From: Oligoflexales bacterium
GTDB taxonomy: Bacteria; Myxococcota_A; UBA9042; DTJE01
Assembly (NCBI GenBank): GCA_012840965.1
Contig: DUVQ01000009.1
Location: 1 to 64,000, forward strand
Direction of reading: 5' to 3'
Length of the DNA: 64,000 bases
Made by a program: the position numbers and the translations under genes. The notes beneath the pieces are model-generated. The model did no database searches and had not been told where the DNA came from. It saw nothing but the letters and a program-made list of their open reading frames with translations. Positions 372 through 47,482 of the stretch are shown here, one piece after another (the first letter of the stretch is position 1; each line of letters opens with the position of its first letter).

Positions 372-1202
372 ATGCTTTCAAATAAAGAGCGCAAGTTCCT
401 GGAGGACACTGCTCGGCGTTTGCGTGAACGAATAGTCGAGGTGACTTACTCCTGTGGGGGAACTCACATTGGTGGGGCAATGAGTCAGCACGAACTACTT
501 ATTGCCTTGTATTACAAGTACTTAAATATTGACCCTACCAATCCTAGGTGGCCAAACAGAGACCGTTTTGTACTGTCTAAAGGTCATGGCGGTGTTGGGC
601 ATGCTGTAATTTTGGCTGACAAAGGTTTCTTTGACACCGCCCTGCTTGATGACTTTAACAAAACTGGTTCACCGTTTGGCATGCACTTGGACTGGCAGAC
701 AGTGCCTGGCGTTGACGTCTCAACTGGTTCTCTTGGTCATGGACTGCCCTTGGCTTTGGGGATGGCGCTTGGTGGACGACAGCAAGGGCTTGATTACCAC
801 GTTTACTGCGTGATGTCGGATGGGGAACTGCAGGAAGGCTCAATTTGGGAGGCGGCTATGGCGGCCTCCCAGTTTAAGGCCACGAACCTGACAGCCTTTG
901 TGGACCGCAACAAGTTTTCCTTGGACGGCCCCACTGAATCTATCATGGCGCTTGAGCCGCTTGACAAGAAGTTTGAGGCGTTTGGATGGCGGGTGCTGTC
1001 GATAGATGGACATGATTTTGACCAAATCTGTGAGGCAATCGAGACCGCGCAAGCTGAAAAGGAAAAGCCGGTCATCATTATCGCCGACACGATTAAGGGT
1101 AAAGGCATAGATTTCATGGAAAATCAGGCTGCGTGGCATTATGCTGGCGTAGACGCCGCAATGCGCGACAAGGCTTTGGAATCAATACGTAAAATGAAGT
1201 AG
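372..1202 (+). CDS. Transketolase, N-terminal (TPP-binding) subunit
   Basis: This 276-residue protein is the thiamine-diphosphate-binding half of a split transketolase, which with the next gene should move two-carbon ketol units between sugar phosphates in the cytoplasm. Visible landmarks are SKGHG near residue 70, GSLGHGL near 120, and the TPP/metal motif DGELQEG at 150-156 followed by NLTAFVDRNK at about 172-181. The residue before the DG is Ser where Gly is usual. Its length matches two-subunit transketolases. The stop is followed 25 bp later by the start of the C-terminal half, so the two are certainly co-transcribed. The ATG at 372 is chosen over 368 (out of frame) and has a strong GGGGGG ribosome-binding site. 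The other four genes of the run suggest a specialised pathway rather than the housekeeping pentose phosphate pathway. Confidence 0.93.
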   Translation: MLSNKERKFLEDTARRLRERIVEVTYSCGGTHIGGAMSQHELLIALYYKYLNIDPTNPRWPNRDRFVLSKGHGGVGHAVILADKGFFDTALLDDFNKTGSPFGMHLDWQTVPGVDVSTGSLGHGLPLALGMALGGRQQGLDYHVYCVMSDGELQEGSIWEAAMAASQFKATNLTAFVDRNKFSLDGPTESIMALEPLDKKFEAFGWRVLSIDGHDFDQICEAIETAQAEKEKPVIIIADTIKGKGIDFMENQAAWHYAGVDAAMRDKALESIRKMK

Positions 1203-1227
1203 ACACTAGATTTGGGAGGTAACTGCC

Positions 1228-2235
1228 ATGGCTCAAGGGTTAACCTGGACTGTTGAAGATGCAGACTCCATGACTCAAGCGGAGATTTATGGTGAGGTAT
1301 TGACGCAGATTGGACAGCAAAACGAAAAGGTCGTCGCGCTGACTGCAGATCTTGCGAAATCCACGAAAATTGGGCGTTTTGGGGAGAAAATCCCAGAACG
1401 CTTTTACAACTTTGGAATCGCCGAGGCCAACATGATTGCAGTGGCCTCTGGAATGGCTGAAACCGGCCTAATTCCTGTAGTTTCAACCTTTGCCACCTTC
1501 GCTTCGATGAGGGCGGCTGAGTTTGTGCGAACGGACCTGTGCTATCAAAAGCGCAATGTCAAAATAATCGCCACACACTCGGGGACGTCTTTTGGTACGG
1601 CTGGTACAACACACCACTGTATCGAGGACTTGTCGATCATGCGGACCTTCCCTGGGATGACGGTAATCGCACCTGCGGATGCGTATGAAACAGCCAGGGC
1701 TGTGTCCGCGGCGATCGAGATGGAAGGCCCCGTTTATATTCGAATTGGGCGAGGATTTGAGCCGCCACTGCATAAATCAATGGATTTCGATTTCGAGATC
1801 GGCAAGGCCATCGAACTGAGAGAAGGCACTGATGTTACAGTGATTGCAACTGGGGTGACGGTGCTGCACGCAGTAGAGGCGGCCGATAGAGCGCGACAAC
1901 AAGGCGTTTCGGTCCGAGTGTTGGATATGCACACGATTAAACCGCTGGATGTTGAGGCGGTTGTAAGGGCTGTCCAGGATACGCGCCGAATCATAACAGT
2001 TGAAGACCACTCTACTATTGGCGGTCTAGGCACAGCTGTGGCCGACGCCATTGCAGCCAGCGGCAAGGGGTGTGCCTTTGCTAAGCTGGGTTATCAAGAC
2101 GAGTATTCCATTGTTGGATACCCAGAAGATTTGTTGCATATCTACAAGTTAGATGCTGATGGCATCCTCGAAACAATCGGCTTGGTTTTAAAGCAAGATT
2201 TTGAACAAGACGAGAACTGGGAGGACGAAATCTAA
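1228..2235 (+). CDS. Transketolase, C-terminal subunit
   Basis: This 335-residue protein is the pyrimidine-binding plus C-terminal half of the split transketolase. The catalytic glutamate that activates TPP is in GIAEANM (Glu at about residue 66), and the THSG...GTTHHCIEDLS stretch at about 112-134 is the usual substrate-channel region. The C-terminal domain with VRVLDMHTIKPLD is typical of the transketolase/DXS family. GGGAGG precedes the ATG at 1228. It could instead be a subunit of a transketolase-like enzyme acting on a modified sugar, such as the apulose-type enzymes, which also come as two polypeptides. The family call is firm but the substrate is not known. Confidence 0.92.
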   Translation: MAQGLTWTVEDADSMTQAEIYGEVLTQIGQQNEKVVALTADLAKSTKIGRFGEKIPERFYNFGIAEANMIAVASGMAETGLIPVVSTFATFASMRAAEFVRTDLCYQKRNVKIIATHSGTSFGTAGTTHHCIEDLSIMRTFPGMTVIAPADAYETARAVSAAIEMEGPVYIRIGRGFEPPLHKSMDFDFEIGKAIELREGTDVTVIATGVTVLHAVEAADRARQQGVSVRVLDMHTIKPLDVEAVVRAVQDTRRIITVEDHSTIGGLGTAVADAIAASGKGCAFAKLGYQDEYSIVGYPEDLLHIYKLDADGILETIGLVLKQDFEQDENWEDEI

Positions 2236-2236
2236 C

Positions 2237-3010
2237 ATGGCTGATCACAAAGAAGAGTTAAAGGCTAGGGTGTTTTTGAGGTCGGCGCTTCCACTGGTCA
2301 AGGTGGTCTTAAGCGAACGTCCCAACTACAGATACCTGCTTTACAAGGCGGATGGAGTCATCCAATTTGGCGCCAAGGACAGCCAGCAGGCAGCTTGGGT
2401 GGCAATGAGTCCAGAGGGCTTTGAGGTCAAGCCGGGCCTTCATGAAAACCCCACAATTTCGCTGATTTTCAAGCGACTCAAGGATTTAAACACCTTCTTT
2501 GCAGGTGGCACGGCACTTCCCAGCGTTTCAGGTGTCAAGGGCGTACCAACCCTGCTGCGCTTTTTGCCTTTTATGCTTAAGCTGAAAATCTTGATGCCAA
2601 CAGCAATGCCAACTGATCCTGCAGAAAAAGAGCTGAAAGTCCGGATGCTTATGCAAATGATTGCTAGCGGCCTGTCACAGCTTAACAAGGGTGGCGATGA
2701 GTTTTTGTCGTCCTACATCAAAAAAAGCCCAGACAGGGTGTTTCAGTTTACGGTCGAAAATGGGGGGCCTGCAAACTACCTGCGGATCAAGGCTGGGAAT
2801 TCAAAGGCTGGTGCCGGGACGTATGCTAGGCGGCGCCCGTATGTGCATATGATTTTTAAGGATATCGACTCTGCTTTCGAGGTTTTGACCCAACGTGTGG
2901 GAACCGTCGAGGCAGTGCGTGATGGACTTTTGCGCGTGGAAGGAGCCATGGAAGGCAGTAAAGACATTGGCGCCTTTATGCAGCACCTTGATAAATTAAC
3001 AATGGGTTGA
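2237..3010 (+). CDS. SCP2 sterol-binding-like protein 1
   Basis: This protein of 257 residues resembles SCP2-type lipid-binding proteins: residues about 30-105 have the pattern of a ligand-binding SCP2 fold (IQFGAKDSQQAAW, then PTISLIFKRLKDLNTFFAGG), and a second similar stretch occurs near the C-terminus (YVHMIFKDIDSAFEVL). The start at 2237 is preferred over 2201 because GGGAGG lies at 2219-2224 and the gap from the transketolase stop is then one base, which implies translational coupling. No signal peptide is seen, so it is probably cytosolic. The next gene encodes a related protein. Binding of a lipid or other hydrophobic intermediate is inferred from the fold; no catalytic residues are visible. 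Confidence 0.6.
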   Translation: MADHKEELKARVFLRSALPLVKVVLSERPNYRYLLYKADGVIQFGAKDSQQAAWVAMSPEGFEVKPGLHENPTISLIFKRLKDLNTFFAGGTALPSVSGVKGVPTLLRFLPFMLKLKILMPTAMPTDPAEKELKVRMLMQMIASGLSQLNKGGDEFLSSYIKKSPDRVFQFTVENGGPANYLRIKAGNSKAGAGTYARRRPYVHMIFKDIDSAFEVLTQRVGTVEAVRDGLLRVEGAMEGSKDIGAFMQHLDKLTMG

Positions 3011-3043
3011 TGAGGGGTCAGAAGGCTATAAATGGAGGCCGTT

Positions 3044-3862
3044 ATGAAAAGATTGCCTGGAAAGATATTTTCGACTGCCTTAGTTAAGGCGGGGGTAGTT
3101 GAGGCTACGACTGAACGAGACTTGATTCGGGCTCACATGCATTTGCACGCCGTCCTACCTAGGCTTGCTGATTTGGCAAGGCTGGATGATGAGGCGCGGG
3201 CGATCATCTCTGAAATGAACGTTGCGATTGAGTTTTTCGTTCCAGGTGGTCCCAAGGTGGTACTTCACTTTAAAAACAGCAGTGTCAGAGCGGTAAGGAC
3301 AGGAAAGGCCGACGTTTGCCTGATGTTTCCAACCTGCAAGATGTTGAATGACATGTTCGACGGAAAAAAGGTGACACCCATCCCAATTAAGGGCGTGCAC
3401 AGAATGGGCGACTTAAAGAAGCTGACTAGGCTTACAGACATCCTGACCCGTTATCTGAAGCCGTCGCAGTCTGAGATGGCCGACAAAGAGTTCAGGGCTA
3501 AACACGTGGAATTAAGCCTGCTTGTCGGGCTTGCAGCGACAGAAGCGATTGCAACCATCGAGGCAAAGGGACGCAGGGTGGCGTCACACATGCCGTCTGG
3601 AACCATGCTCTACGACGTTAAGGGCGGACCAAAGGCCCATGTGATAGTCAAAGATGGGAAAATCGAGGTCTTTCCTGGAGCCATCAAAGATCCGACTACG
3701 ACCATCGAGATTCGCGACGTCGATTTGGCGGTGGACCTAGTCAAGGGTGAAGTCGACACCTTTGCAGCCAATGGGTCTGGCGATATCAAAGCCAGTGGCG
3801 GTTTGGCCTTGGCAGATGAGTATAACGCCCTATTTGACCGAGTTGGACTGTACCTTAGCTAG
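3044..3862 (+). CDS. SCP2 sterol-binding-like protein 2
   Basis: This protein of 272 residues is a second SCP2-like protein and probably a diverged paralogue of its upstream neighbour. VVLHFKNSSVRAVRTGKADV followed by MLNDMFDGKKVTPIPIKG matches the fold pattern, and a second unit near the C-terminus reads HVIVKDGKIEVF...TTTIEIRDVDLAVDLVKGEVD. The start at 3044 has GGAGG five bases upstream; the alternative ATG at 3032 lies before that site. Two tandem SCP2-type genes between a transketolase and an aminotransferase are uncommon and suggest that the operon's product or intermediate is hydrophobic, which is inference. Confidence 0.58.
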   Translation: MKRLPGKIFSTALVKAGVVEATTERDLIRAHMHLHAVLPRLADLARLDDEARAIISEMNVAIEFFVPGGPKVVLHFKNSSVRAVRTGKADVCLMFPTCKMLNDMFDGKKVTPIPIKGVHRMGDLKKLTRLTDILTRYLKPSQSEMADKEFRAKHVELSLLVGLAATEAIATIEAKGRRVASHMPSGTMLYDVKGGPKAHVIVKDGKIEVFPGAIKDPTTTIEIRDVDLAVDLVKGEVDTFAANGSGDIKASGGLALADEYNALFDRVGLYLS

Positions 3863-3881
3863 CGGCCAGTGGAGGTAAATC

Positions 3882-5123
3882 ATGAAGCTAAACAGTTTTG
3901 ACAAATCGAAAGAGCTGTTTTTACGGGCTACCAAAGTCATTCCTAGTGGCATTTCTGGAAATAAAAACCCGGCATTTGCAGTGCCTGGGTCATTTCCATA
4001 CTTCGCCGAATCTGGCGAGGGATGTCGCTACAAGGACGTTGATGGGAACGAGTACATCGACTATCTGGCCGGGTATGGCCCCATTGTTTTGGGCTACAAC
4101 GATCCAGTTGTAGAGGCTGCGGCTGATGCACAGCGAAAGCTTGGTGCGGCCTTTAATCATCCAACTCCAAGAGCGGTTGAGCTTGCGGAAAAATTGGTTG
4201 ATTTGATCCCAGCGATTGATTGGTGCGCGTTTGGTAAAAATGGCTCAGATGTTACTGCTTACGCCATTCAAACGGCGCGAGAACACACTCAGCGTCGAAA
4301 AATCCTGATGGCTAAAGGGGCGTATCACGGCTCTCAATCGTGGTGCAGGCATGGATTGGGGGGGCTGATCGAGTCGGACTATGAGCACGTGCTGACTTTC
4401 ACCTGGAACGATGCTGACAGCGTCATGGACCTGGTGAAAAAGTACGACGGAGATGTGGCTGGGATAATTATAACTCCATACCACCACCCTGCCTTTGCCG
4501 ATCAGGAAATGCCTGCTCCAGGCTTTTTGCAGACCTTGCGAAAGATCTGTGATGACCATGAAATTGTGTTCATCCTGGACGACGTTAGAGCCGGTTTCAG
4601 GCTGGATATGAAAGGCTCGCATGAATACTTTGGATTTAAGCCAGATCTGACGTGCTACTGCAAGGCGATGGCCAACGGGTACGCCGTTTCAGCCTGTTGT
4701 GGTAGCCAACCCTTTAAAAACGCTGCTTCCAGGGTGTTTTTCACTGGTACATACTACACTTCAGCAGTTGAGCAGGCCGCGTCTTTGGCATGCTTGGATG
4801 AGCTGGTAAAATCGAACGCCATCGAGCATATGATGAAGATGGGAACGATGCTCATGGATGGCTTGAAAAAGACCGCAGCAGACAATGGGTTGGAGGTGCG
4901 CTTGACTGGGCCGCCCACTCTGCCCTTCATGACATTTGCCAGCGAGAAAAACTTCCGCCGAAGCCAGCTGTTTTCAGGGGAGGCCGCCAAGCGTGGAGTT
5001 TTGCTGCACCCACACCACAACTGGTTCATAATGCGGGCTCACAAAGAAGCTGACATTCAAAGGACTTTGGAAGTGGCTGACGCATGCTTTGCGATTGTTA
5101 GCAAGGAATTTGGCAAGGATTAA
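3882..5123 (+). CDS. Class III aminotransferase, glutamate-1-semialdehyde aminomutase-like
   Basis: This 413-residue PLP enzyme belongs to the fold-type I class III family near glutamate-1-semialdehyde aminomutase (PSGISGNKNPAF start, YIDYLAGYGPIVLGY, FGKNGSDVTAYAIQTAR, AYHGSQSW). The PLP-ring aspartate is in ILDDVRAGFR (Asp at about 233) and the Schiff-base lysine is most likely Lys261 in CYCKAMANG. GTGGAGG precedes the ATG. It sits 20 bp after the second SCP2-like gene and 3 bp before the dipeptidase, inside the operon. A housekeeping hemL role is unlikely in this context; amination of a sugar- or lipid-derived carbonyl made downstream of the transketolase is a reasonable inference. Confidence 0.85.
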   Translation: MKLNSFDKSKELFLRATKVIPSGISGNKNPAFAVPGSFPYFAESGEGCRYKDVDGNEYIDYLAGYGPIVLGYNDPVVEAAADAQRKLGAAFNHPTPRAVELAEKLVDLIPAIDWCAFGKNGSDVTAYAIQTAREHTQRRKILMAKGAYHGSQSWCRHGLGGLIESDYEHVLTFTWNDADSVMDLVKKYDGDVAGIIITPYHHPAFADQEMPAPGFLQTLRKICDDHEIVFILDDVRAGFRLDMKGSHEYFGFKPDLTCYCKAMANGYAVSACCGSQPFKNAASRVFFTGTYYTSAVEQAASLACLDELVKSNAIEHMMKMGTMLMDGLKKTAADNGLEVRLTGPPTLPFMTFASEKNFRRSQLFSGEAAKRGVLLHPHHNWFIMRAHKEADIQRTLEVADACFAIVSKEFGKD

Positions 5124-5125
5124 CC

Positions 5126-6367
5126 ATGGGTGGGTCCACTTTGAACAAAAATGTCCGGCTCTTTGATCTTCACGCCCACCCAAGCCTGAAGATGTTTTAT
5201 CTGCCTTATTTGCGATCAACCCTGCATGCTACCGTGTACTCGGGAGCGCATTTCAACCCACTGTCGTTTCGCACCAGATACGCGAACTTAAAGGACAGCC
5301 CGGTTCGCGTCGTTGTAAACGCCCATTATGTAATTGAAAGGGAATTTATCAGGCGTGGATTCAAGCAGTTGTCAAAGGTTCTGACTTGGGGCTTGGTGCC
5401 TGGTTTTATGCATCGGTTAGTTACCGCGGATCCTTGGGAAACCCTTATCCGAATGATGAATTATCTGGATGAATCCACCGAGAACACCAATCGTTGGCTT
5501 TTGAAAAGTGATCGCAGGGTCAAAGTTGTCTCATCATTTAAGGAGCTTCAGGGGCTAGCAGATAACGAAATTGGGATTATCCATGCGATTGAAGGTACCC
5601 ATTCGCTAGGGTTTCCTGGGCCAGACCAAACTCGCGACGAGTTTTGGGAGCAAACTAAAAACAGGTTGGCCTACTTGAAGCGGCGTGGCGTGGCAATGAT
5701 TGGATTGGCCCACTTTTTTGACAATCCCTTCGCCCCACAGACCGATGCGACAGAGATTGTACCCAAGAAAGTCGGTAACAAAATCGTTGCCGAGTACGAC
5801 GACATGCTGGTGCGAATGCGAGCTGCCGAGTGGAAGTGGGGGGATAAAGACCACTTTTCAGATGAGTTTGTCAGGGAGCTTTTGCGACTTGGGATACTTG
5901 TTGATCTGAGTCACCTTCAGGAGCATGCACGTCAACATGTGTATGAGCACTGTGCCGATTTTAACCGCCCTGTAGTCGCGTCACACGTTGGATTGCAGCG
6001 CTTTTTTAAAGCCCCCTACAATATGACTGACGAAGAGGTTGTGACCATCAACAAGCTAGGTGGAGTAGTTGGCCTAATCATTTCCAAACGTTGGCTGGTC
6101 GACCCCATTGATCGCTACTACGCTGGCAATGACGGTATTCCCGATCTGATCGAAAACATGCTGCACATGGCGGATTTGACTGGTTCGGTGGATGTCATCG
6201 GTATTGGTTCAGATTTTGACGGACTGACCCACCCATTTGCAGAGGTGTTCAAGCCATCTCAGTTTGGGCGCATTGCACACGCCATGACTAGATATTTCAA
6301 CGACGAGCAAATAGACCAAATCCTGTTTAAAAATGCCATGCGTTGTTTTGAAAACGGATGGGATTAA
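5126..6367 (+). CDS. Peptidase family M19 (membrane-dipeptidase-like) metalloenzyme
   Basis: This 413-residue protein is an M19 renal-dipeptidase-type zinc hydrolase. The metal ligands are visible as HAH at about 16-18, the bridging Glu in HAIEGTHS at about 156, the histidines in LVDLSHLQEHA and PVVASHVGLQRF, and the Asp in GIGSDFDGL near the end. Family members cleave dipeptides, some with D-residues. No signal peptide is visible. The gene starts two bases after the aminotransferase stop and ends the operon, 16 bp from the stop of the convergent permease. It may hydrolyse an aminoacyl conjugate formed by the operon, although this is only context. Confidence 0.85.
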   Translation: MGGSTLNKNVRLFDLHAHPSLKMFYLPYLRSTLHATVYSGAHFNPLSFRTRYANLKDSPVRVVVNAHYVIEREFIRRGFKQLSKVLTWGLVPGFMHRLVTADPWETLIRMMNYLDESTENTNRWLLKSDRRVKVVSSFKELQGLADNEIGIIHAIEGTHSLGFPGPDQTRDEFWEQTKNRLAYLKRRGVAMIGLAHFFDNPFAPQTDATEIVPKKVGNKIVAEYDDMLVRMRAAEWKWGDKDHFSDEFVRELLRLGILVDLSHLQEHARQHVYEHCADFNRPVVASHVGLQRFFKAPYNMTDEEVVTINKLGGVVGLIISKRWLVDPIDRYYAGNDGIPDLIENMLHMADLTGSVDVIGIGSDFDGLTHPFAEVFKPSQFGRIAHAMTRYFNDEQIDQILFKNAMRCFENGWD

Positions 6368-6383: not shown

Positions 6384-7772
6384 TCACGGCTTGGTATCGC
6401 TGCCAGTTGCGGCTTTGTTTGAAATGTTGGGATCCTTGTAAGGAATCAAAGACAAAGCCACGAATATTACTAAAGGAACCAGGAACAACTTCCAAGACTG
6501 AACCAGACCTATCACCCAAATTCCAAGGCCCACCAACAGAAAGATGATGGCAGTCCAAGGATAACCCTTCATCTTTACAGGCATTTCCATGCGACGTTTG
6601 TGGCGAAACACAAAAATTGTGGAGGCAGTAATACATGAAAGCAGGATAAGGATGCTGCCAGTCCAGGTTAACAGGAAGGAAAAACTGCCTGTAAGTACCA
6701 ACAGCGAGGCAATGATGCCTTGGGTCCAGATTGCCGTCACTGGAGTTTTGCGGACCGGACTAACCAGCCTCATCTGACGCCAAAGCAACTTGTCTTGGCC
6801 CATGGCAAAGGCGATTCTGGCGCCGGCCATCATTGTGGCGTTTAGGCCGGCAAGTAAAGCCATAGACAAGAGAATTGAAAACGCTTTCGCCCCAGCATCC
6901 CCCAGTTGGGCAGCAGCAACCGCCACGCCGGCGTTTTGTTGGTTTTTTAACTCGTCGAGAGGCATCACCGTGATAAAGGCAAGGTTTAGAACTATGTAGA
7001 TGACAGTAGTAAAGGTGACGCCAGTAAAGATGACTCTGGGAATGGTTTTGTGGGGCTCTTTTATTTCACCGCCAATATAGGTCAGAACGTTCCAGCCAGA
7101 ATACGTGAAAAACACGGCACAACCAGCTGCCGCAAGCCCTTTGGCATCCCAGCTTGAAGAATCGCGCTGGACCAAATCTGCGGCGTCCAAATGCCAGCCA
7201 AAAATTGCGGCGACAGCAAAGATCGTGAACAAGCCGACCGGGACCAGGGATAAAAGCATCTGCAAGGCGGAAGTCCATGAAAGGCCAAGTAGATTCACGG
7301 TCATGGAAAGGCCAATCAAGGCGATACCAAACAAGTCACCGGTGGTCAAGGTAAAGAAATCAGTGGAAAAAATTGGAACTAACAAAAACGCTCCCATGTC
7401 CGTTTGCGCGATGGTCGCGGTAATCCCGACGGCCAAAGCTGCAAGCGAACCTGGGAAAGTTCCAAAAGCTGCAAGCAGGCCCCAGGCTCTGGCAACAGAA
7501 CGACCATAAGCCTTGTCCAGGAAAACATAATCGCCGCCGGCCTGGGGAAACAACATTCCAAGCTCAGCGAATACATGGGCACCACTGGCGGCCATGAGCC
7601 CTCCAAGGGCCCACAAAGTCAAGTAAGTTGCCACATTTGGGGACGCAGCAGCCACCTCGGCCGGGGTCAGGAAAATGCCTGCACCAATGATGTTGCCAAG
7701 CATTATGGCGAGACAGGACCAAAACCCAAGCTCTCGGGAAAGCTTACCTGTACCAGAACTGCTAGAAGCCAA
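6384..7772 (-). CDS. APC-superfamily amino acid permease
   Basis: This 462-residue inner-membrane protein is an amino acid/polyamine/organocation transporter close to the LAT-like branch. The N-terminal LGNIIGAGIFLTPAEVA in helix 1 is the substrate-binding signature, and about twelve hydrophobic segments follow. FTYSGWNVLTYIGGEIKEP in the middle is also characteristic. AAGAGG precedes the ATG. It converges on the M19 dipeptidase gene with 16 bp between stops, so it may import amino acids released by that enzyme, but the opposite strand means it is not in the same transcript. Confidence 0.9.
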   Translation of the reverse strand: MASSSSGTGKLSRELGFWSCLAIMLGNIIGAGIFLTPAEVAAASPNVATYLTLWALGGLMAASGAHVFAELGMLFPQAGGDYVFLDKAYGRSVARAWGLLAAFGTFPGSLAALAVGITATIAQTDMGAFLLVPIFSTDFFTLTTGDLFGIALIGLSMTVNLLGLSWTSALQMLLSLVPVGLFTIFAVAAIFGWHLDAADLVQRDSSSWDAKGLAAAGCAVFFTYSGWNVLTYIGGEIKEPHKTIPRVIFTGVTFTTVIYIVLNLAFITVMPLDELKNQQNAGVAVAAAQLGDAGAKAFSILLSMALLAGLNATMMAGARIAFAMGQDKLLWRQMRLVSPVRKTPVTAIWTQGIIASLLVLTGSFSFLLTWTGSILILLSCITASTIFVFRHKRRMEMPVKMKGYPWTAIIFLLVGLGIWVIGLVQSWKLFLVPLVIFVALSLIPYKDPNISNKAATGSDTKP

Positions 7773-9265: not shown

Positions 9266-9305
9266 TGCCCTGTCCCTGCCCCTGTCCCCGCCCCTGCCCC
9301 TGTCC
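9266..9305 (+). repeat. CCYGYC hexamer array B
   Basis: About 40 bp of CCTGTC/CCTGCC/CCCGCC units lie between the inverted repeat of DUF4143 gene 1 and the start of the small membrane protein gene. The complementary strand has five or more GGG runs. Read in frame it gives a Cys-Pro run at the front of an over-long reading frame from 9265. Confidence 0.85.
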
Positions 9306-9813: not shown

Positions 9814-9860
9814 CGGAGGCAGGGAAGGGGACAGGGAGCAGGGACAGGGACAGGAACAGG
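9814..9860 (-). repeat. CCYGYC hexamer array C (G-rich strand shown)
   Basis: On the given strand this reads as GRCRGG units (GGCAGG, GACAGG, GAGCAGG variants) with at least four GGG runs. It begins 12 bp after the stop of the small membrane protein gene and is inverted relative to array B, so the two arrays bracket one gene. Confidence 0.85.
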
Positions 9861-14413: not shown

Positions 14414-17400
14414 TTGAAAGCATTCGTGCAGCCTAGTATAATTGCGAGGCTTTTGTTGGGGGCGTTCGTGTATCTGAAAACCAGATATTTCCTTGTATAT
14501 TCCATGATTTTGGCTTTCATGGCTTGCTCCGGTGGTGGGGAGCATGATGTTGATATTGTCAGACCAGGCGATTCAGGCAAGCAAGACCTGATGGAGGACA
14601 GCGAAATCCCCGTAGTTATACCTGATGATGGTCGTCCAGACACGCCACCTGACCCAGACGTTGAGGCCGATACAGATGACTGTGACGACTGCCTAGATGC
14701 CTTCGATGCCCATGATGAAACTGGCACCATCGAAGAAGGAACACCTGGGGCCCCATGCAGCGAAAACGACGAATGCCATTCTGGATTTTGTATCGACTCA
14801 CCCGGCGGGCGGGTCTGTGCCCGACTATGCGACTCTTCAACCGCCTGCCCAGATGGGACGCGATGTTTACAGGTCCAAGGTGAACCCGACGTTATGTATG
14901 CCTGCGTGTATCTCTTCACCCGCCTTTGTCTGCCTTGTAATTCTGATATCTCGTGTGTAACCCCACTAGCTGTCGGGGCGCCAGCCTGTATGGGCGATGA
15001 TGACGGGTGGTTTTGCGGCTCTCCTTGTGCAAGTGATGAAGACTGCCCCTCGACGCATCATTGCAGACTTGGAAAATCTATAGACAACGTTAACACTAGG
15101 CAGTGCGTACCAAAAAGTGGCACTTGCCCCTGTACTCAAAGGGCCGTCGATGAAGGAATAAGAACTGCGTGCGCCATATCGAATGAGTTCGGCCGGTGCC
15201 CAGGAGAGCGTTATTGCCTTGATACGGGCCTTTCTGAGTGCTCGGCAATGATTCCAGTAGCCGAAATCTGTGATGGAATCGACAATGATTGCAACGGCAT
15301 TACAGACGACGTTGAACCTGTGGCATGCATGATAACTAACCGCTGGGGTTCATGCCCTGGTACAGCTAGGTGCTTAAATGGCAAGGACGATTGCTACGGA
15401 ATCCCGCCTGAAAGGGAGGTTTGCAATGGAATCGACGACAACTGTGATGGACGGACCGACGAACAAGGTGCCATCGGCTGCATCAACTATCACAAGGATC
15501 AGGACCAAGATGGCTACGGTTTAAGAGATGACGCCAAATGCCTCTGTGGGCCTGAATATCCATACACCGCAACTCCTAGAACAGATCGGGATTATGACTG
15601 CGATGACAATAACGCCAATGTCCATCCAAACGCGGTGGAAATCTGCAATGGCATAGATGACAACTGTGACCAACGAATCGACGAGGAAAACGCACAAGGA
15701 TGCGAGATTTTCTATCGAGACCTAGACATGGATGGCTACGGTTTAAGCACTGATTTTCGTTGCCTTTGCGCTGGCAAGGGGTCTTACACGGCCACATTGG
15801 ATGGGGACTGCGATGACACCAATAACAAGGTGTATCCTGGTGCCATCGAACGCTGTAATGGTATAGACGACAACTGCGACGGACGTACGGACCCAGAGGG
15901 TTCTGCCGACTGCCAGCCATACTACTATGACGGGGATAGGGACGGCTACGGGACCGCTTCCAGACCTTCCAAATGCCTTTGTGGGCCTGAGTATTCCAGC
16001 CGATACACTAGTCTCAACTCGAACGACTGTGATGACACCAACGCCGAGATTAACCCTGCAAGACCAGAGATCTGTGGTGACGGCATCGACAACAACTGCA
16101 ACGGCCAGACTGACGAAGACAACGCCCAAGGTTGTATCCTTCGCTATGAAGACAATGATGGCGACGGCTACGGAACTGGAAGTGGCTTGTGTATTTGCGG
16201 CCTGCGCCCACCCTACACAGCTGACGTTGGTGGCGACTGTAATGATCTTAATAGAAACATCAACCCTGGCAAACCAGAGCTTTGTGGGGATGGCATTGAT
16301 AACAATTGCAACGGGGACACCGACGAAGAAGGAGCTGTTGGCTGTGTCGACAGGTACTACGATTTTGACGGTGATGGCTACGGTGTTGGTGCCCCAAGAT
16401 GTCTATGTGCCGACGAGGGTTACTATACCGCCCTCGAAGGAGGAGATTGTGATGATCACGAATCGTCGCTGAACCCAGGTCAACCAGAATTATGTTTCGA
16501 CGGCATTGATAACAACTGCAATGGCAAGACTGATGAAGAAGGGGCCCAGGGATGTGAGATTTATTACGCTGATCGTGACAACGACGGTTATGGAAACCCT
16601 TCGGATTCCAAGTGTCTATGCAGCCCAACGGACGTTTATACATCCCGTAACAACCGGGATTGTGATGACACAAACAAAGATGTAAACCCCGATATGCCAG
16701 AACTATGTGGTGATAACATCGACAACAACTGTAACGGCAAAACTGATGAAGAAGGGGCTCAAGGGTGTGTGGACTTCTACTATGATGGGGATGGCGACAA
16801 TTATGGCGCCCTTGGTTCCACACCGCGATGCCTATGTGGGCCTGACGTGGCTGGAAAGTTCACGGCCACACTAGAAGGCGACTGTAACGACTCAAACCCG
16901 GCCATCAATCCTGGAGCCCGGGAAATCTGTGAACCAGAGGGGGTGCCACCTGTTGACGACAACTGTAATGGCCTGTTGAACGAAGAAAACGCGGTCGGCT
17001 GTGTCAGCTACTACTATGACGGTGATGGTGACGGTCGTGGCTCCAACCCAGACCAGCCAAAGTGCTTCTGCCGTGGAGGCAACCCAGCTATTAAATACAC
17101 CAGCCTCTATTCCGATGACTGTAACGACAATGACCCTGAAATGGCGCCGGGCCTTGAAGAAAAGTGTGATGGCAAGGACAACGATTGCGACGGTTTCACG
17201 GATGAAGAAGGAGCTATTGGTTGCGACATTTACTATAAAGATCACGACCAAGATGGCTACGGTAACGATATCGACTTCAAGTGTCTTTGCTCGCCAGACC
17301 TGCTCAACCGTTACACAGCCACCGAGGCCGGAGACTGCGACGACGAAAACAGCGCGATTCATCCAGGGGCCTCAGTCTGTGGCATAGACGCTGACTGCGA

Positions 17401-18625
17401 TGGCAATTTCCTTGACCCAGGCGAAGAGTGTGATGATGGCAACACCATCGCTTGGGACGGTTGCACCAACTGCCAAATAACCGAGTTCAGAGTCAACTAC
17501 AACGCATCTATGGACCAGTGGATGCCAGCGGTTGCACCTGTTGCTAACGGCAACTATGCGGTAATTTTCCAGTCCTGGCAGGCATTGAAGGATGAAGAGA
17601 TTGCCTTGAGATTTGTTGACGCCACTGGAAAACCCCAAGGAAACAATGACATATGGGTAAACTCGTTTAAAGACAATCCACAAACAGCACCCCATATTGC
17701 GGTGTTACCAAATGGAAACTTGGTTGCGGTATGGGAATCAACCGGCCAGGATAGCCAAGGTAAGGCTGTGATTTTACAAAGGTTAACGCCAACAGGAACC
17801 AAGATTGGTGGCGAGATACTCGTAAACTCCTTCACTCAGTACGATCAAAGACGTCCGTCGGTTGCGGCCCTCCCAGATAACGGATTTGTGGTGGTTTGGC
17901 AGTCCTATCTGCAAGATGGTGATAATAATGGGATAGTTGCCAGGCGCTTTAACGCGGATGGATCTTTTAATGGTAGTGAATTCGTGGTCAACCAGACAAC
18001 GGCTGGGGTCCAGGATTCTCCCAGAATTCTGGGCCTTGATGATGGAGGCTTCATCATTGTGTGGCGTTCTGCAGTAAGTCGCGGTCCTGGCGTTAGCGAC
18101 TACGATATATTCATGCGCCTCTACAACAATGAGGGGGCTGCTATAGGTGGTGAACAGCTTGTAAACACCACTACGACCAAGAATCAATCCAACCCCTCAA
18201 TAGCCCAGATTACCAATAATCAGTACGTGGTTGTTTGGGATTCAGAGGACCAAGACGGGTCTGGGCTTGGCATCTATGGGCAGCGTTTTACCCTTTATGG
18301 TACAGAACACGGCCCAGAGTTTAGGATAAACAGCACCACTATTAGCGATCAGGCCCAACCTGTCGTTGCTGGGTTCCCCTCCACAGGAAGGTGGGTTGTG
18401 TTGTGGCGCTCCAATGCTCAAGACGGTTCAGGCCAGGGGACCTACGCACAACGGTTTTACGGTCCTGCAGCTTATGCTGGCGAATTCAGGGTTCACGAGT
18501 TTACGACCAGTGACCAGTGGTACCCAGCTGCGGCATGCCATGCAGATCAATTCCTTGTGACCTGGTCCTCGTATGCACAGGACGGCTCAGGTTACGGGGT
18601 TTATGGCCGACTGTTTAGCTGGTGA
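14414..18625 (+). CDS. Giant MopE-like Cys/Asp-repeat surface lipoprotein with propeller domain
   Basis: This protein of up to 1403 residues is exported. The first codon of the longest frame is TTG at 14414. GTG at 14468, with a GGGGG run six bases upstream, gives a better signal peptide ending in the lipobox-like FMAC. After an Asp-rich linker and a Cys-rich stretch, ten repeats of the E-[IV/L]-C-x-[G/N]-IDxNC[DN]G-x-TDEE type follow, each with a DxDxDGYG calcium-type loop and a second Cys pair; this is the MopE-like putative metal-binding motif. The last 360 residues hold seven repeats of the form VVWxSxxQDGxxxGIxxQRF, which suggests a seven-bladed beta-propeller. A role in adhesion or metal binding at the cell surface is inferred. 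Confidence 0.85.
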   Translation: MKAFVQPSIIARLLLGAFVYLKTRYFLVYSMILAFMACSGGGEHDVDIVRPGDSGKQDLMEDSEIPVVIPDDGRPDTPPDPDVEADTDDCDDCLDAFDAHDETGTIEEGTPGAPCSENDECHSGFCIDSPGGRVCARLCDSSTACPDGTRCLQVQGEPDVMYACVYLFTRLCLPCNSDISCVTPLAVGAPACMGDDDGWFCGSPCASDEDCPSTHHCRLGKSIDNVNTRQCVPKSGTCPCTQRAVDEGIRTACAISNEFGRCPGERYCLDTGLSECSAMIPVAEICDGIDNDCNGITDDVEPVACMITNRWGSCPGTARCLNGKDDCYGIPPEREVCNGIDDNCDGRTDEQGAIGCINYHKDQDQDGYGLRDDAKCLCGPEYPYTATPRTDRDYDCDDNNANVHPNAVEICNGIDDNCDQRIDEENAQGCEIFYRDLDMDGYGLSTDFRCLCAGKGSYTATLDGDCDDTNNKVYPGAIERCNGIDDNCDGRTDPEGSADCQPYYYDGDRDGYGTASRPSKCLCGPEYSSRYTSLNSNDCDDTNAEINPARPEICGDGIDNNCNGQTDEDNAQGCILRYEDNDGDGYGTGSGLCICGLRPPYTADVGGDCNDLNRNINPGKPELCGDGIDNNCNGDTDEEGAVGCVDRYYDFDGDGYGVGAPRCLCADEGYYTALEGGDCDDHESSLNPGQPELCFDGIDNNCNGKTDEEGAQGCEIYYADRDNDGYGNPSDSKCLCSPTDVYTSRNNRDCDDTNKDVNPDMPELCGDNIDNNCNGKTDEEGAQGCVDFYYDGDGDNYGALGSTPRCLCGPDVAGKFTATLEGDCNDSNPAINPGAREICEPEGVPPVDDNCNGLLNEENAVGCVSYYYDGDGDGRGSNPDQPKCFCRGGNPAIKYTSLYSDDCNDNDPEMAPGLEEKCDGKDNDCDGFTDEEGAIGCDIYYKDHDQDGYGNDIDFKCLCSPDLLNRYTATEAGDCDDENSAIHPGASVCGIDADCDGNFLDPGEECDDGNTIAWDGCTNCQITEFRVNYNASMDQWMPAVAPVANGNYAVIFQSWQALKDEEIALRFVDATGKPQGNNDIWVNSFKDNPQTAPHIAVLPNGNLVAVWESTGQDSQGKAVILQRLTPTGTKIGGEILVNSFTQYDQRRPSVAALPDNGFVVVWQSYLQDGDNNGIVARRFNADGSFNGSEFVVNQTTAGVQDSPRILGLDDGGFIIVWRSAVSRGPGVSDYDIFMRLYNNEGAAIGGEQLVNTTTTKNQSNPSIAQITNNQYVVVWDSEDQDGSGLGIYGQRFTLYGTEHGPEFRINSTTISDQAQPVVAGFPSTGRWVVLWRSNAQDGSGQGTYAQRFYGPAAYAGEFRVHEFTTSDQWYPAAACHADQFLVTWSSYAQDGSGYGVYGRLFSW

Positions 18626-28073: not shown

Positions 28074-28150
28074 CCCGCCCCTGCCCCTGTTCCCGTCCCC
28101 TTCCCCGTCCCTGTCCCCGCCCCTGTCCCTGTCCCTGTCCCCGCCCCTGT
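28074..28150 (+). repeat. CCYGYC hexamer array F
   Basis: About 77 bp of CCTGTC, CCCGCC, CCTGCC and CCCGTC units end 56 bp before the start of the DDAH-like gene. The complementary strand carries more than ten GGG runs. Confidence 0.85.
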
Positions 28151-45454: not shown

Positions 45455-47482
45455 ATGGAGATTCCTTTAGGACTACAAAAGGCGATAAAGGACAACAGGT
45501 TAGTAGTATTTGTTGGTGCAGGACTATCATATGAGCTCAAAAACTCACAAGGCAAAAAATTAGGAGGTTGGGTCAACCTAGTCGCACATATTATAGAAGA
45601 ACTAGAGAGAAAAGGACATGATGTCGCTTACTTACAACCAGTACTTAGTAAGCATGACCCAACAGCCGCACTCGCTCTCATTGAGTCTCGAATTGAACCT
45701 CCAAATAACGAGTTATCAAAGGACGAAATCTATCGAATTGTCAGGTCTTTTTACGAACTAAGTGACGAAAACGAGTATTCTCTGCATAAAAAGGTACTTA
45801 AGCTAACTAACAGAGTCATCACTACGAACTATGACACAGCGTTTGAAGAGGTCGAACCTCGATTTAGAGGATACAAGGCATACAAAGGAAAAGACCATGA
45901 GTTAAGAGAACTCGTGGAAAATGATAATAACGGATTCTTGATCAAGTTACATGGTTGTTCTGAAAACACCGGTTCCATGATTTTGTTTCCATCTGACTAC
46001 AAAAAGCTTTACGAAAGCAAAGAAAGAGATGCTCTGCATTTATTAACGGTCTTGAGGACCATCATACTGCACAAAACAATTCTCTTTTTAGGCTTTAAAC
46101 TAGATGAACCCCAGATAAATGGCATCTTCAAAGAGATAGAGTACATACAAGGTACAAAAGACCAAAGGCATTTTGTTGTTGCAAGGAAGGAGTCAACGGG
46201 CAATCCACCAGACTGTGTTGGATCGATTGTTAACATCTCTATTGAGGACTTCATTAATGAGCTTATTAGAATTAAAGAAACTCAAACAAGTACGGATCCA
46301 GAAAAAAGAAGGCTAGAGGAGCAACTTAAAGCAGCTTCAAAAAAAATTGCCGAATTAGAAAAACAGCCTTCTTACCAAGAAGAACTCGCTGAAAAGACAA
46401 GACTTTTAGAAAGAGAGGCCTATAAATATTACATAAAAGGAGTGGAGTACAGTTTATCAAATGAATTCTCATTGGCCGCAGAACAGTATGAAATGGCAAC
46501 TGAATTAAAACCAGACTTTCACGAAGCCTTCAATAATTGGGGATATGCTTTACGAGAGCTAGCAGAAACCAAGCAAGGAAAAGAGAGAGATGACTTGTAT
46601 AAACAAGCCTTACAAAAGTACGAAAAAGCAATTGACATAGAATCCGATGCTTATGAAGCCTTTTATAACTTGGGAAATGCTTTACAAGAGCTAGCGAAAA
46701 CCAAAGAAGGAAAAGAGGCCGATGAGCTGTACAAACAAGCCTTCGAAAAGTACAAAAATGCAATTGACATAAAACCAGACTATCATGGAGCCTTCAATAA
46801 CTGGGGAAATGCTTTACAAGAGCTAGCAGAAACCAAAGAAGGAAAAGAAAGAGATGACTTGTATAAACAAGCCTTACAAAAGTACGAAAAAGCAACTGAA
46901 TTAAAACCAAACGATCATGGAGTCTTGAACAACTGGGCAATTGCTTTACAAGCGCTAGCGAGTACCAAAGAAGGAAAAGAAGCCGATAGACTCTACAAAC
47001 AAGCCTTGCAAAAGTACGAAAAAGCAACTGAGATAAAGCCAGACGATCATGGAGTCTTTTATAACTGGGGATATGCTTTACAAGCGCTAGCAGAAACCAA
47101 AGAAGGAAAAGAAGCCGATAGACTCTACAAACAAGCCTTGCAAAAGTACGAAAAAGCAACTGAGATAAAGCCAGACGATCATGAAGTCTTGAACAATTGG
47201 GGAATTGCTTTACAAGCACTAGCAGAAACCAAAGAAGGAAAAGAGGCAGATGAACTGTACAAACAAGCCTTACAAAAGTTCGAAAAAGCAAGTGAATTAA
47301 AACCAGACGATCATGAAGTCTTGGACAACTGGGAAAATGTTTTACGAGCCCTAGCAAAAACCAAAGAAGGAAAAGAGGCCGATAGACTGTTCATACAAGC
47401 CTTGGAAGCATATGAACGAGCCTTGGAGAGGTACAAAAAGGCAACTGGGGCAGTTTGGATATCCGTTTTTGATCATGATTGA
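45455..47482 (+). CDS. SIR2-domain plus TPR-repeat protein (candidate NAD-consuming defence effector)
   Basis: This 675-residue protein has an N-terminal SIR2-like domain: VVFVGAGLS (about 17-25), VITTNYDTAFE (Asn125 and Asp127), FLIKLHG (catalytic His at 166) and FLGFKLDEPQ near 212. A coiled coil follows at about 280-325. The C-terminal half is seven tandem units of 44 residues (NNWGxALQALAETKEGKEADxLYKQALQKYEKATEIKP), longer than the usual 34-residue TPR. SIR2 domains fused to sensor domains in phage defence (Thoeris, DSR and relatives) cleave NAD when triggered. Here the TPR array would be the sensor or scaffold. The gene is AT-rich relative to its neighbours. The defence role is inferred. 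Confidence 0.75.
   Translation: MEIPLGLQKAIKDNRLVVFVGAGLSYELKNSQGKKLGGWVNLVAHIIEELERKGHDVAYLQPVLSKHDPTAALALIESRIEPPNNELSKDEIYRIVRSFYELSDENEYSLHKKVLKLTNRVITTNYDTAFEEVEPRFRGYKAYKGKDHELRELVENDNNGFLIKLHGCSENTGSMILFPSDYKKLYESKERDALHLLTVLRTIILHKTILFLGFKLDEPQINGIFKEIEYIQGTKDQRHFVVARKESTGNPPDCVGSIVNISIEDFINELIRIKETQTSTDPEKRRLEEQLKAASKKIAELEKQPSYQEELAEKTRLLEREAYKYYIKGVEYSLSNEFSLAAEQYEMATELKPDFHEAFNNWGYALRELAETKQGKERDDLYKQALQKYEKAIDIESDAYEAFYNLGNALQELAKTKEGKEADELYKQAFEKYKNAIDIKPDYHGAFNNWGNALQELAETKEGKERDDLYKQALQKYEKATELKPNDHGVLNNWAIALQALASTKEGKEADRLYKQALQKYEKATEIKPDDHGVFYNWGYALQALAETKEGKEADRLYKQALQKYEKATEIKPDDHEVLNNWGIALQALAETKEGKEADELYKQALQKFEKASELKPDDHEVLDNWENVLRALAKTKEGKEADRLFIQALEAYERALERYKKATGAVWISVFDHD
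46518..47440 (+). repeat. Tandem 132-bp coding repeats (TPR array)
   Basis: Seven units of 132 bp encode the extended TPR repeats. Units starting near 47002 and 47134 are the most alike at DNA level, which suggests recent duplication and possible copy-number change. Confidence 0.75.

Follow-up and report, generated by a model that had tools for sequence, protein, structure and literature searches.

What could bring a transketolase divided into two chains, two proteins with a lipid-binding fold, an aminotransferase and a peptidase together in one operon? The question is raised by a gene cluster of an Oligoflexales bacterium (GenBank assembly GCA_012840965.1; 3.1 Mb, 96% complete), found at positions 372-6367 of a 64,000-nucleotide stretch (positions 1 to 64,000 of contig DUVQ01000009.1), hereafter the window. 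We give an even chance to the reading that this operon encodes a soluble pathway interconverting sphingoid bases and fatty aldehydes, with breakdown or detoxification as the favoured direction. Six open reading frames (ORFs), named tkN, tkC, scpA, scpB, amt and M19, lie on the plus strand with intergenic spacings of 25, 1, 21, 19 and 2 bp. A preliminary description of this DNA, made from the letters alone, had given the same distances except for a third gap of 33 bp, which applies only if scpB starts at the alternative ATG at 3044. The operon that it proposed is real, with six ORFs on one strand, short gaps and Pfam domains that back the family calls. Promoter and terminator scans gave matches at chance level.

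Five of the six genes form a conserved core, from which the dipeptidase is excluded. In 12 of 13 genomes of the same family, tkN-tkC-scpA-scpB-amt are direct neighbours within the limits of the contigs, with scpB identity dropping to 26-31% within the kept clusters; the sole member without the cluster is G007. A profile search with scpA found 75 loci in many phyla, including Myxococcota, Spirochaetota (many of them Treponema), Desulfobacteria (Desulfoluna and Desulfobacterium), Bacillota (including gut Clostridia), Hydrogenedentota, Nitrospirota, Actinomycetota (Thermoleophilia), Planctomycetota and candidate phyla, as well as Parendozoicomonas. Those relatives in the genome collection that bear names are metagenome-assembled genomes of Myxococcota or 'Deltaproteobacteria'. 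The tkN-tkC-scpA set is complete and adjacent in 66 of the 75 loci (median gap about 11 bp). Because adjacency is kept both in 12 of the 13 same-family genomes and in these 66 loci from multiple phyla, the linkage of the five genes is not due to chance. The scpB-amt pair shares a locus with the transketolase module in about 32 cases and is placed downstream of scpA, upstream of tkN or divergently. We also examined 31 genomes chosen mostly because amt did not adjoin the transketolase; amt is present in 26 of them (E <= 1e-70), with scpB directly upstream in 23. Since scpB stays upstream of amt even where the pair sits away from the transketolase, the system consists of two co-travelling modules, [tkN-tkC-scpA] and [scpB-amt]. 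The preliminary description had asked whether the six genes stay together in other genomes; the five core genes do, while the dipeptidase varies between relatives.

Some loci depart from the usual context. Loci L091-L106, mostly of gut Clostridia, carry a divergent scpA (27-35% identity) with an extra insertion beside tkN-tkC, and many of them have as neighbours a putative polyamine ABC transporter and a large gene resembling those of glycoside hydrolases. Here scpB-amt lies elsewhere and adjoins a giant surface-protein-like gene (L193-L195). On a short contig of G030 (L012), scpB-amt directly follows an asparagine-synthase-like gene, a context unlike all others.

The genes tkN (372..1202, 276 aa; Pfam Transketolase_N, 3e-47) and tkC (1228..2235, 335 aa; Transket_pyr, 1e-43, and Transketolase_C, 9e-29) encode the N-terminal half, which binds thiamine diphosphate (ThDP), and the C-terminal half, with the pyrimidine-binding and C domains, of a split transketolase. 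All three domains (PF00456, PF02779 and PF02780) score far above the cut-off. The nearest solved structures are those of the split transketolase of Carboxydothermus hydrogenoformans (PMC7661550), matched by tkN at 250 bits (6yak, N chain) and by tkC at 277 bits (6yaj), and the two enzymes share the two-chain architecture and the conserved catalytic residues. The catalytic His/Glu set (H37, H77, H110, H258, E366 and H416 in human numbering) is invariant in all aligned members, and human K244 is likewise conserved in the tkN family. Arg474 is kept together with the catalytic His and Glu366, and one phosphate-binding Arg is retained across 67 relatives. Unlike in the Carboxydothermus enzyme, however, the position of E. 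coli Asp469 (human Asp424) is Ala in 66 of the 67 family members (Ser in the other), half of them have another residue in place of Arg318, and WHG is changed to WHY. The Asp is retained in the controls, the housekeeping full-length and canonical split transketolases encoded in the same genomes. The score against the NCBIfam transketolase model is 259 bits, under the cut-off of 488. Since the window's own genome holds a separate full-length transketolase elsewhere, the split transketolase is a dedicated enzyme; it differs from its Carboxydothermus counterpart also in having a dedicated third gene, scpA, and in not being the housekeeping enzyme. We rejected a redundant pentose-phosphate transketolase on account of the Asp469 change, with its controls, and of this separate full-length enzyme. 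The Asp469 site governs acceptor choice, the Asp recognizing the hydroxyl adjacent to the aldehyde group. The D469T mutation of the E. coli enzyme is known to allow propanal as acceptor and provides a hydrophobic surface for non-polar acceptors (PMC10787763). The natural Asp-to-Ala change thus runs in the same direction as the change introduced by engineers for aliphatic aldehydes.

We then investigated amt (3882..5123, 413 aa; Pfam Aminotran_3, 7e-44), a class III aminotransferase dependent on pyridoxal phosphate, which the preliminary description had taken for an enzyme of the glutamate-1-semialdehyde type. Its best match in the PDB is instead FumI, the aminopentol aminotransferase of Sphingopyxis sp. 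MTA144 (6hbs), with 337 bits versus 191 for the best glutamate-1-semialdehyde aminomutase (GSAM). The same preference is found in a profile comparison (432 versus 256 bits) and in sequence identity (40.7% versus 32.2%). In a maximum-likelihood tree, all cluster amt sequences and FumI form one clade (100/100), apart from which fall GSAM and two outgroup class III enzymes (100/100). FumI groups with the Parendozoicomonas sequence, both on long branches, making its place inside the clade unsure. Against TIGR00713 (GSAM, HemL), amt scores 213 bits and does not reach the curated cut-off of 527. An identity as GSAM was rejected on score, identity and tree. FumI deaminates hydrolysed fumonisin B1, a sphinganine analogue, with an alpha-keto acid as acceptor (PMC9858248, PMC10204369; the activity on hydrolysed fumonisin is also cited from PMC4845651). 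The two enzymes share membership of class III and the conserved catalytic Lys, and the substrate of FumI is a long-chain 2-amino-3-hydroxy compound with the motif found in sphinganine. Unlike FumI, amt has a tandem-SCP2 protein and a split transketolase as partners.

The remaining core genes, scpA (2237..3010, 257 aa; Pfam SCP2, 4e-4), which adjoins tkC, and scpB (3032..3862, 276 aa; SCP2, 2e-7), which adjoins amt, encode predicted lipid-binding proteins. Only scpB reaches the Pfam gathering score, scpA being just under the cut-off. AlphaFold2 models, with a pLDDT of 94.9 for scpA (alignment of 46 relatives) and 93.4 for scpB (34 relatives), both contain two SCP2 units in tandem. Foldseek matched the scpA model to the SCP2 domain of the alkylsulfatase SdsA1, SCP2, UbiJ and a mosquito SCP2 with a bound C16 fatty acid, and the scpB model to SCP2, UbiJ and SdsA1. 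On these models, both are SCP2-fold proteins composed of two tandem domains, and the earlier view that proteins of a lipid-binding fold belong to the set is borne out, with one for each module. UbiJ, too, is an SCP2 protein that partners enzymes working on an intermediate of lipid nature. The two proteins share the fold of the SCP2 and UbiJ lipid carriers, but differ from them in having two domains in one protein, in their weak sequence similarity and in being dedicated to a transketolase and an aminotransferase.

How might these activities be combined? The general form of a transketolase donor is R-CHOH-CO-CH2OH. The transamination product of a sphingoid base, the proposed substrate, has exactly this shape. 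In the proposed route, amt would move the C2 amine between a sphingoid base, R-CHOH-CH(NH2)-CH2OH, and an alpha-keto acid such as pyruvate, leaving a 1,3-dihydroxy-2-ketone, R-CHOH-CO-CH2OH. The split transketolase would then cut the C2-C3 bond, freeing a fatty aldehyde, R-CHO, and an aldose phosphate from the pentose phosphate pathway would receive the C2 ketol unit. In some relatives, a dehydrogenase of the ALDH3 type may turn the aldehyde into a fatty acid. The water-insoluble chain would be held by scpA for the transketolase and by scpB for the aminotransferase; one lipid carrier per enzyme is expected because both enzymes are soluble and would act on one insoluble chain. Ketol transfer before or after transamination, as assumed at the outset, is the likely chemistry of the operon. 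The preliminary description had guessed at an amino-polyol or amino-ketol head group, joined to a lipid or carried with a lipid-binding protein; a polar head group of this kind is not supported. With amt placed in the FumI clade, and with the residue for recognition of hydroxylated sugar aldehydes lost from the transketolase, the evidence is better suited by an amino-ketol that forms the lipid backbone, as in a sphingoid base.

The last gene of the operon (5126..6367, 413 aa; Pfam Peptidase_M19, 3e-35) encodes an M19-family membrane dipeptidase-like metallohydrolase, which scores 122.6 bits against a cut-off of 26 and has only distant solved relatives. It directly follows amt in the window's genome (G000) and in G003, G009 and G011. 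A membrane-type M28 peptidase takes the place after amt in G004, G006 and G010; in G003 and G009 it comes after M19. No dipeptidase was found beside the cluster outside the window's family. For these reasons the dipeptidase was rejected as a core gene; described earlier as an integral sixth member, it is an accessory one, whose slot varies between relatives. Because two unrelated amide hydrolases have been recruited to the same slot, an amide-cleaving step is suggested for the window's family only, where M19 or M28 may act first and liberate the amine of an amide. The release of an amide, as proposed for M19 in the preliminary description, would be compatible with deacylation of a ceramide-like amide. 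Directly downstream of the operon, an APC-family amino acid permease gene is convergent to it (6384-7772). It was left out as a partner, a 48% homologue being found upstream of the cluster in G002 (L030/L082) only.

In which direction does the pathway run? We favour breakdown or detoxification over synthesis, clearly but not overwhelmingly, because of the ALDH3-type neighbours, a conserved TetR regulator and the M19/M28 hydrolases. A gene for an ALDH3-type dehydrogenase adjoins the cluster in four loci (L050, L052, L066 and L085), and the L050 protein matches human fatty aldehyde dehydrogenase with 400 bits. One family of TetR regulators is found beside 10 loci, and MerR regulators beside four. 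Several points weigh against this reading. Fewer than half of the loci have an ALDH3 or zinc alcohol dehydrogenase beside them. An ALDH3 neighbour is missing from most [tkN-tkC-scpA] loci of Treponema and gut Clostridia, and many of these belong to small genomes of 1.1-2.5 Mb, which would suit the synthesis of a structural lipid. Full-length neutral ceramidase is found in 10 of 65 carriers versus 2 of 40 non-carriers, a difference that does not reach significance (p = 0.13). As to the substrate, the compound deaminated by FumI is a 1-deoxy analogue, which makes true sphingoid bases an extrapolation for amt. The keto product of FumI would not be a transketolase donor, as fumonisin carries no 1-hydroxyl on its backbone. 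The loss of Asp469 suits a non-polar aldehyde whether as substrate or as product, and gives no indication of chain length.

Among the ceramidase genes inspected, none has a core gene beside it, and co-occurrence with ceramidase, suggestive but not significant, was rejected as proof of breakdown. A 402-aa zinc alcohol dehydrogenase is encoded right after scpA in eight loci of Spirochaetota and Bacillota (L050, L053, L066, L069, L070, L073, L075 and L085), where a 2-hydroxy version of the same lipid could be the substrate. In four Desulfoluna loci (L071, L074, L076 and L077), an acetolactate-synthase-type ThDP enzyme and an aldehyde dehydrogenase are encoded about 3.5-7 kb away; these could serve 1-deoxy sphingoid substrates.

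The same reactions run in reverse would make sphinganine without serine palmitoyltransferase (SPT): a C2 ketol unit would be joined to a fatty aldehyde, and amt would then aminate the product. We consider this replacement of SPT unlikely, though it deserves serious attention. The 12 cluster-bearing genomes of the window's family have no SPT-grade match, their few matches scoring 254-326 bits and being BioF-like where examined, and the SPT model NF047600 has no match in the 96%-complete genome of the window. The one family member without the cluster, G007, has an SPT-like protein and an adjacent GNAT-type protein. Beyond the family, many carriers have no SPT-like match at all, and the five genes persist in genomes of 1.1-2 Mb, usually without transporters. 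However, the SPT contrast within the family rests on one genome, and SPT-like proteins scoring 490-560 bits are encoded in three carriers (G064, G087 and G093). These carriers weaken the case for strict mutual exclusion with SPT, to which the 13 genomes had pointed, and it was rejected. The cluster has no conserved companion gene for an acyl reductase, an N-acyltransferase or a head group, no carrier has a close homologue of the GNAT-type ceramide-synthase-like protein, and the ALDH3, TetR and peptidase neighbours suggest breakdown. In both G007 and G013, which have no cluster, an SPT-like gene is followed by the gene for the GNAT-type protein (L116, 7254-9716; L117, 8210-10592), and this protein may be a ceramide synthase.

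Alternatively, the pathway could handle some other hydrophobic amino-ketol or amino-polyol, such as an alkane triol, an amino-polyol head group on a lipid (the idea of the preliminary description) or a secondary metabolite, rather than a sphingoid base. A 2-hydroxyl could be the target of the zinc alcohol dehydrogenase encoded in 8 loci beside the transketolase module, and the asparagine-synthase-like neighbour of scpB-amt in G030 and the M19 and M28 peptidases would fit such a compound. On the other hand, a long-chain substrate is indicated by the kinship with FumI and by SCP2 partners on both modules, and neither a glycosyltransferase nor an activating enzyme is conserved with the cluster. 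We regard this explanation as improbable. Ordinary metabolism, that is, a redundant pentose-phosphate transketolase and a tetrapyrrole GSAM lying by chance beside lipid-binding proteins, is very hard to believe and largely refuted: NCBIfam lists both models under cut-off, which automatic annotation might follow, but the scores given above are far below the curated values, a separate full-length transketolase exists, Asp469 is lost, amt lies outside the GSAM clade, and the linkage is kept across phyla.

A sphingoid-base pathway is the reading we prefer. We found no paper linking a transketolase with bacterial sphingoid bases in the open-licence literature, and no described pathway with this set came to light in the search, in line with the preliminary description. 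The enzyme families are known, while the searched literature gave no description of their combination, of the tandem SCP2 partners or of the transketolase with its altered site; these altered versions of known enzyme kinds probably amount to an undescribed pathway. Canonical sphingoid-base metabolism, in which SPT serves synthesis and sphingosine kinase and sphingosine 1-phosphate (S1P) lyase serve breakdown, shares with the proposed route the substrate class and a fatty aldehyde product. The proposed route would differ from it in using ketol transfer and transamination, with no decarboxylating condensation, phosphorylation or lyase. In Pseudomonas aeruginosa, the sphABCD genes are thought to handle sphingosine (PMC5150637). 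They encode porin, cytochrome, lactone-oxidase-like and racemase-like proteins, and none of these families is present in the cluster.

Other features of the window were also recorded. CCTGTC-type tandem repeats of 6, 12 or 18 bases are found at 170-253, 9268-9302, 9820-9860 and 28074-28150, one array lying about 120 bp upstream of the operon. A predicted secreted protein of 1403 aa, rich in Cys and Asp, is encoded at 14414-18625 and shows by eye many CNGIDDNCDG-type repeats. The C-terminal half of a 675-aa protein (45455-47482) consists of about seven near-identical TPR-like repeats of 44 aa, with a period of 132 bp.

On balance, we lean slightly towards the view that the cluster represents a previously unknown route for the sphingoid backbone, independent of SPT and S1P lyase and widespread in anaerobes, gut bacteria and Myxococcota. 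In this route, a re-specialized transketolase would join a fatty aldehyde to a C2 sugar unit or split the two apart, while the nitrogen would be the task of a FumI-type transaminase. What becomes of host and dietary sphingolipids in bacteria is poorly understood, and genomes are usually judged for bacterial sphingolipids by the presence of SPT. If the proposal is true, anaerobes including termite-gut Treponema and gut Clostridia would remove or make bioactive sphingolipids without S1P lyase or SPT. If the pathway is biosynthetic, many bacteria scored as sphingolipid-negative for having no SPT would make sphingoid bases. FumI, which is of commercial interest for mycotoxin removal, would gain a natural biochemical context, and a natural transketolase family may accept long aliphatic aldehydes, which is a goal of enzyme engineering.

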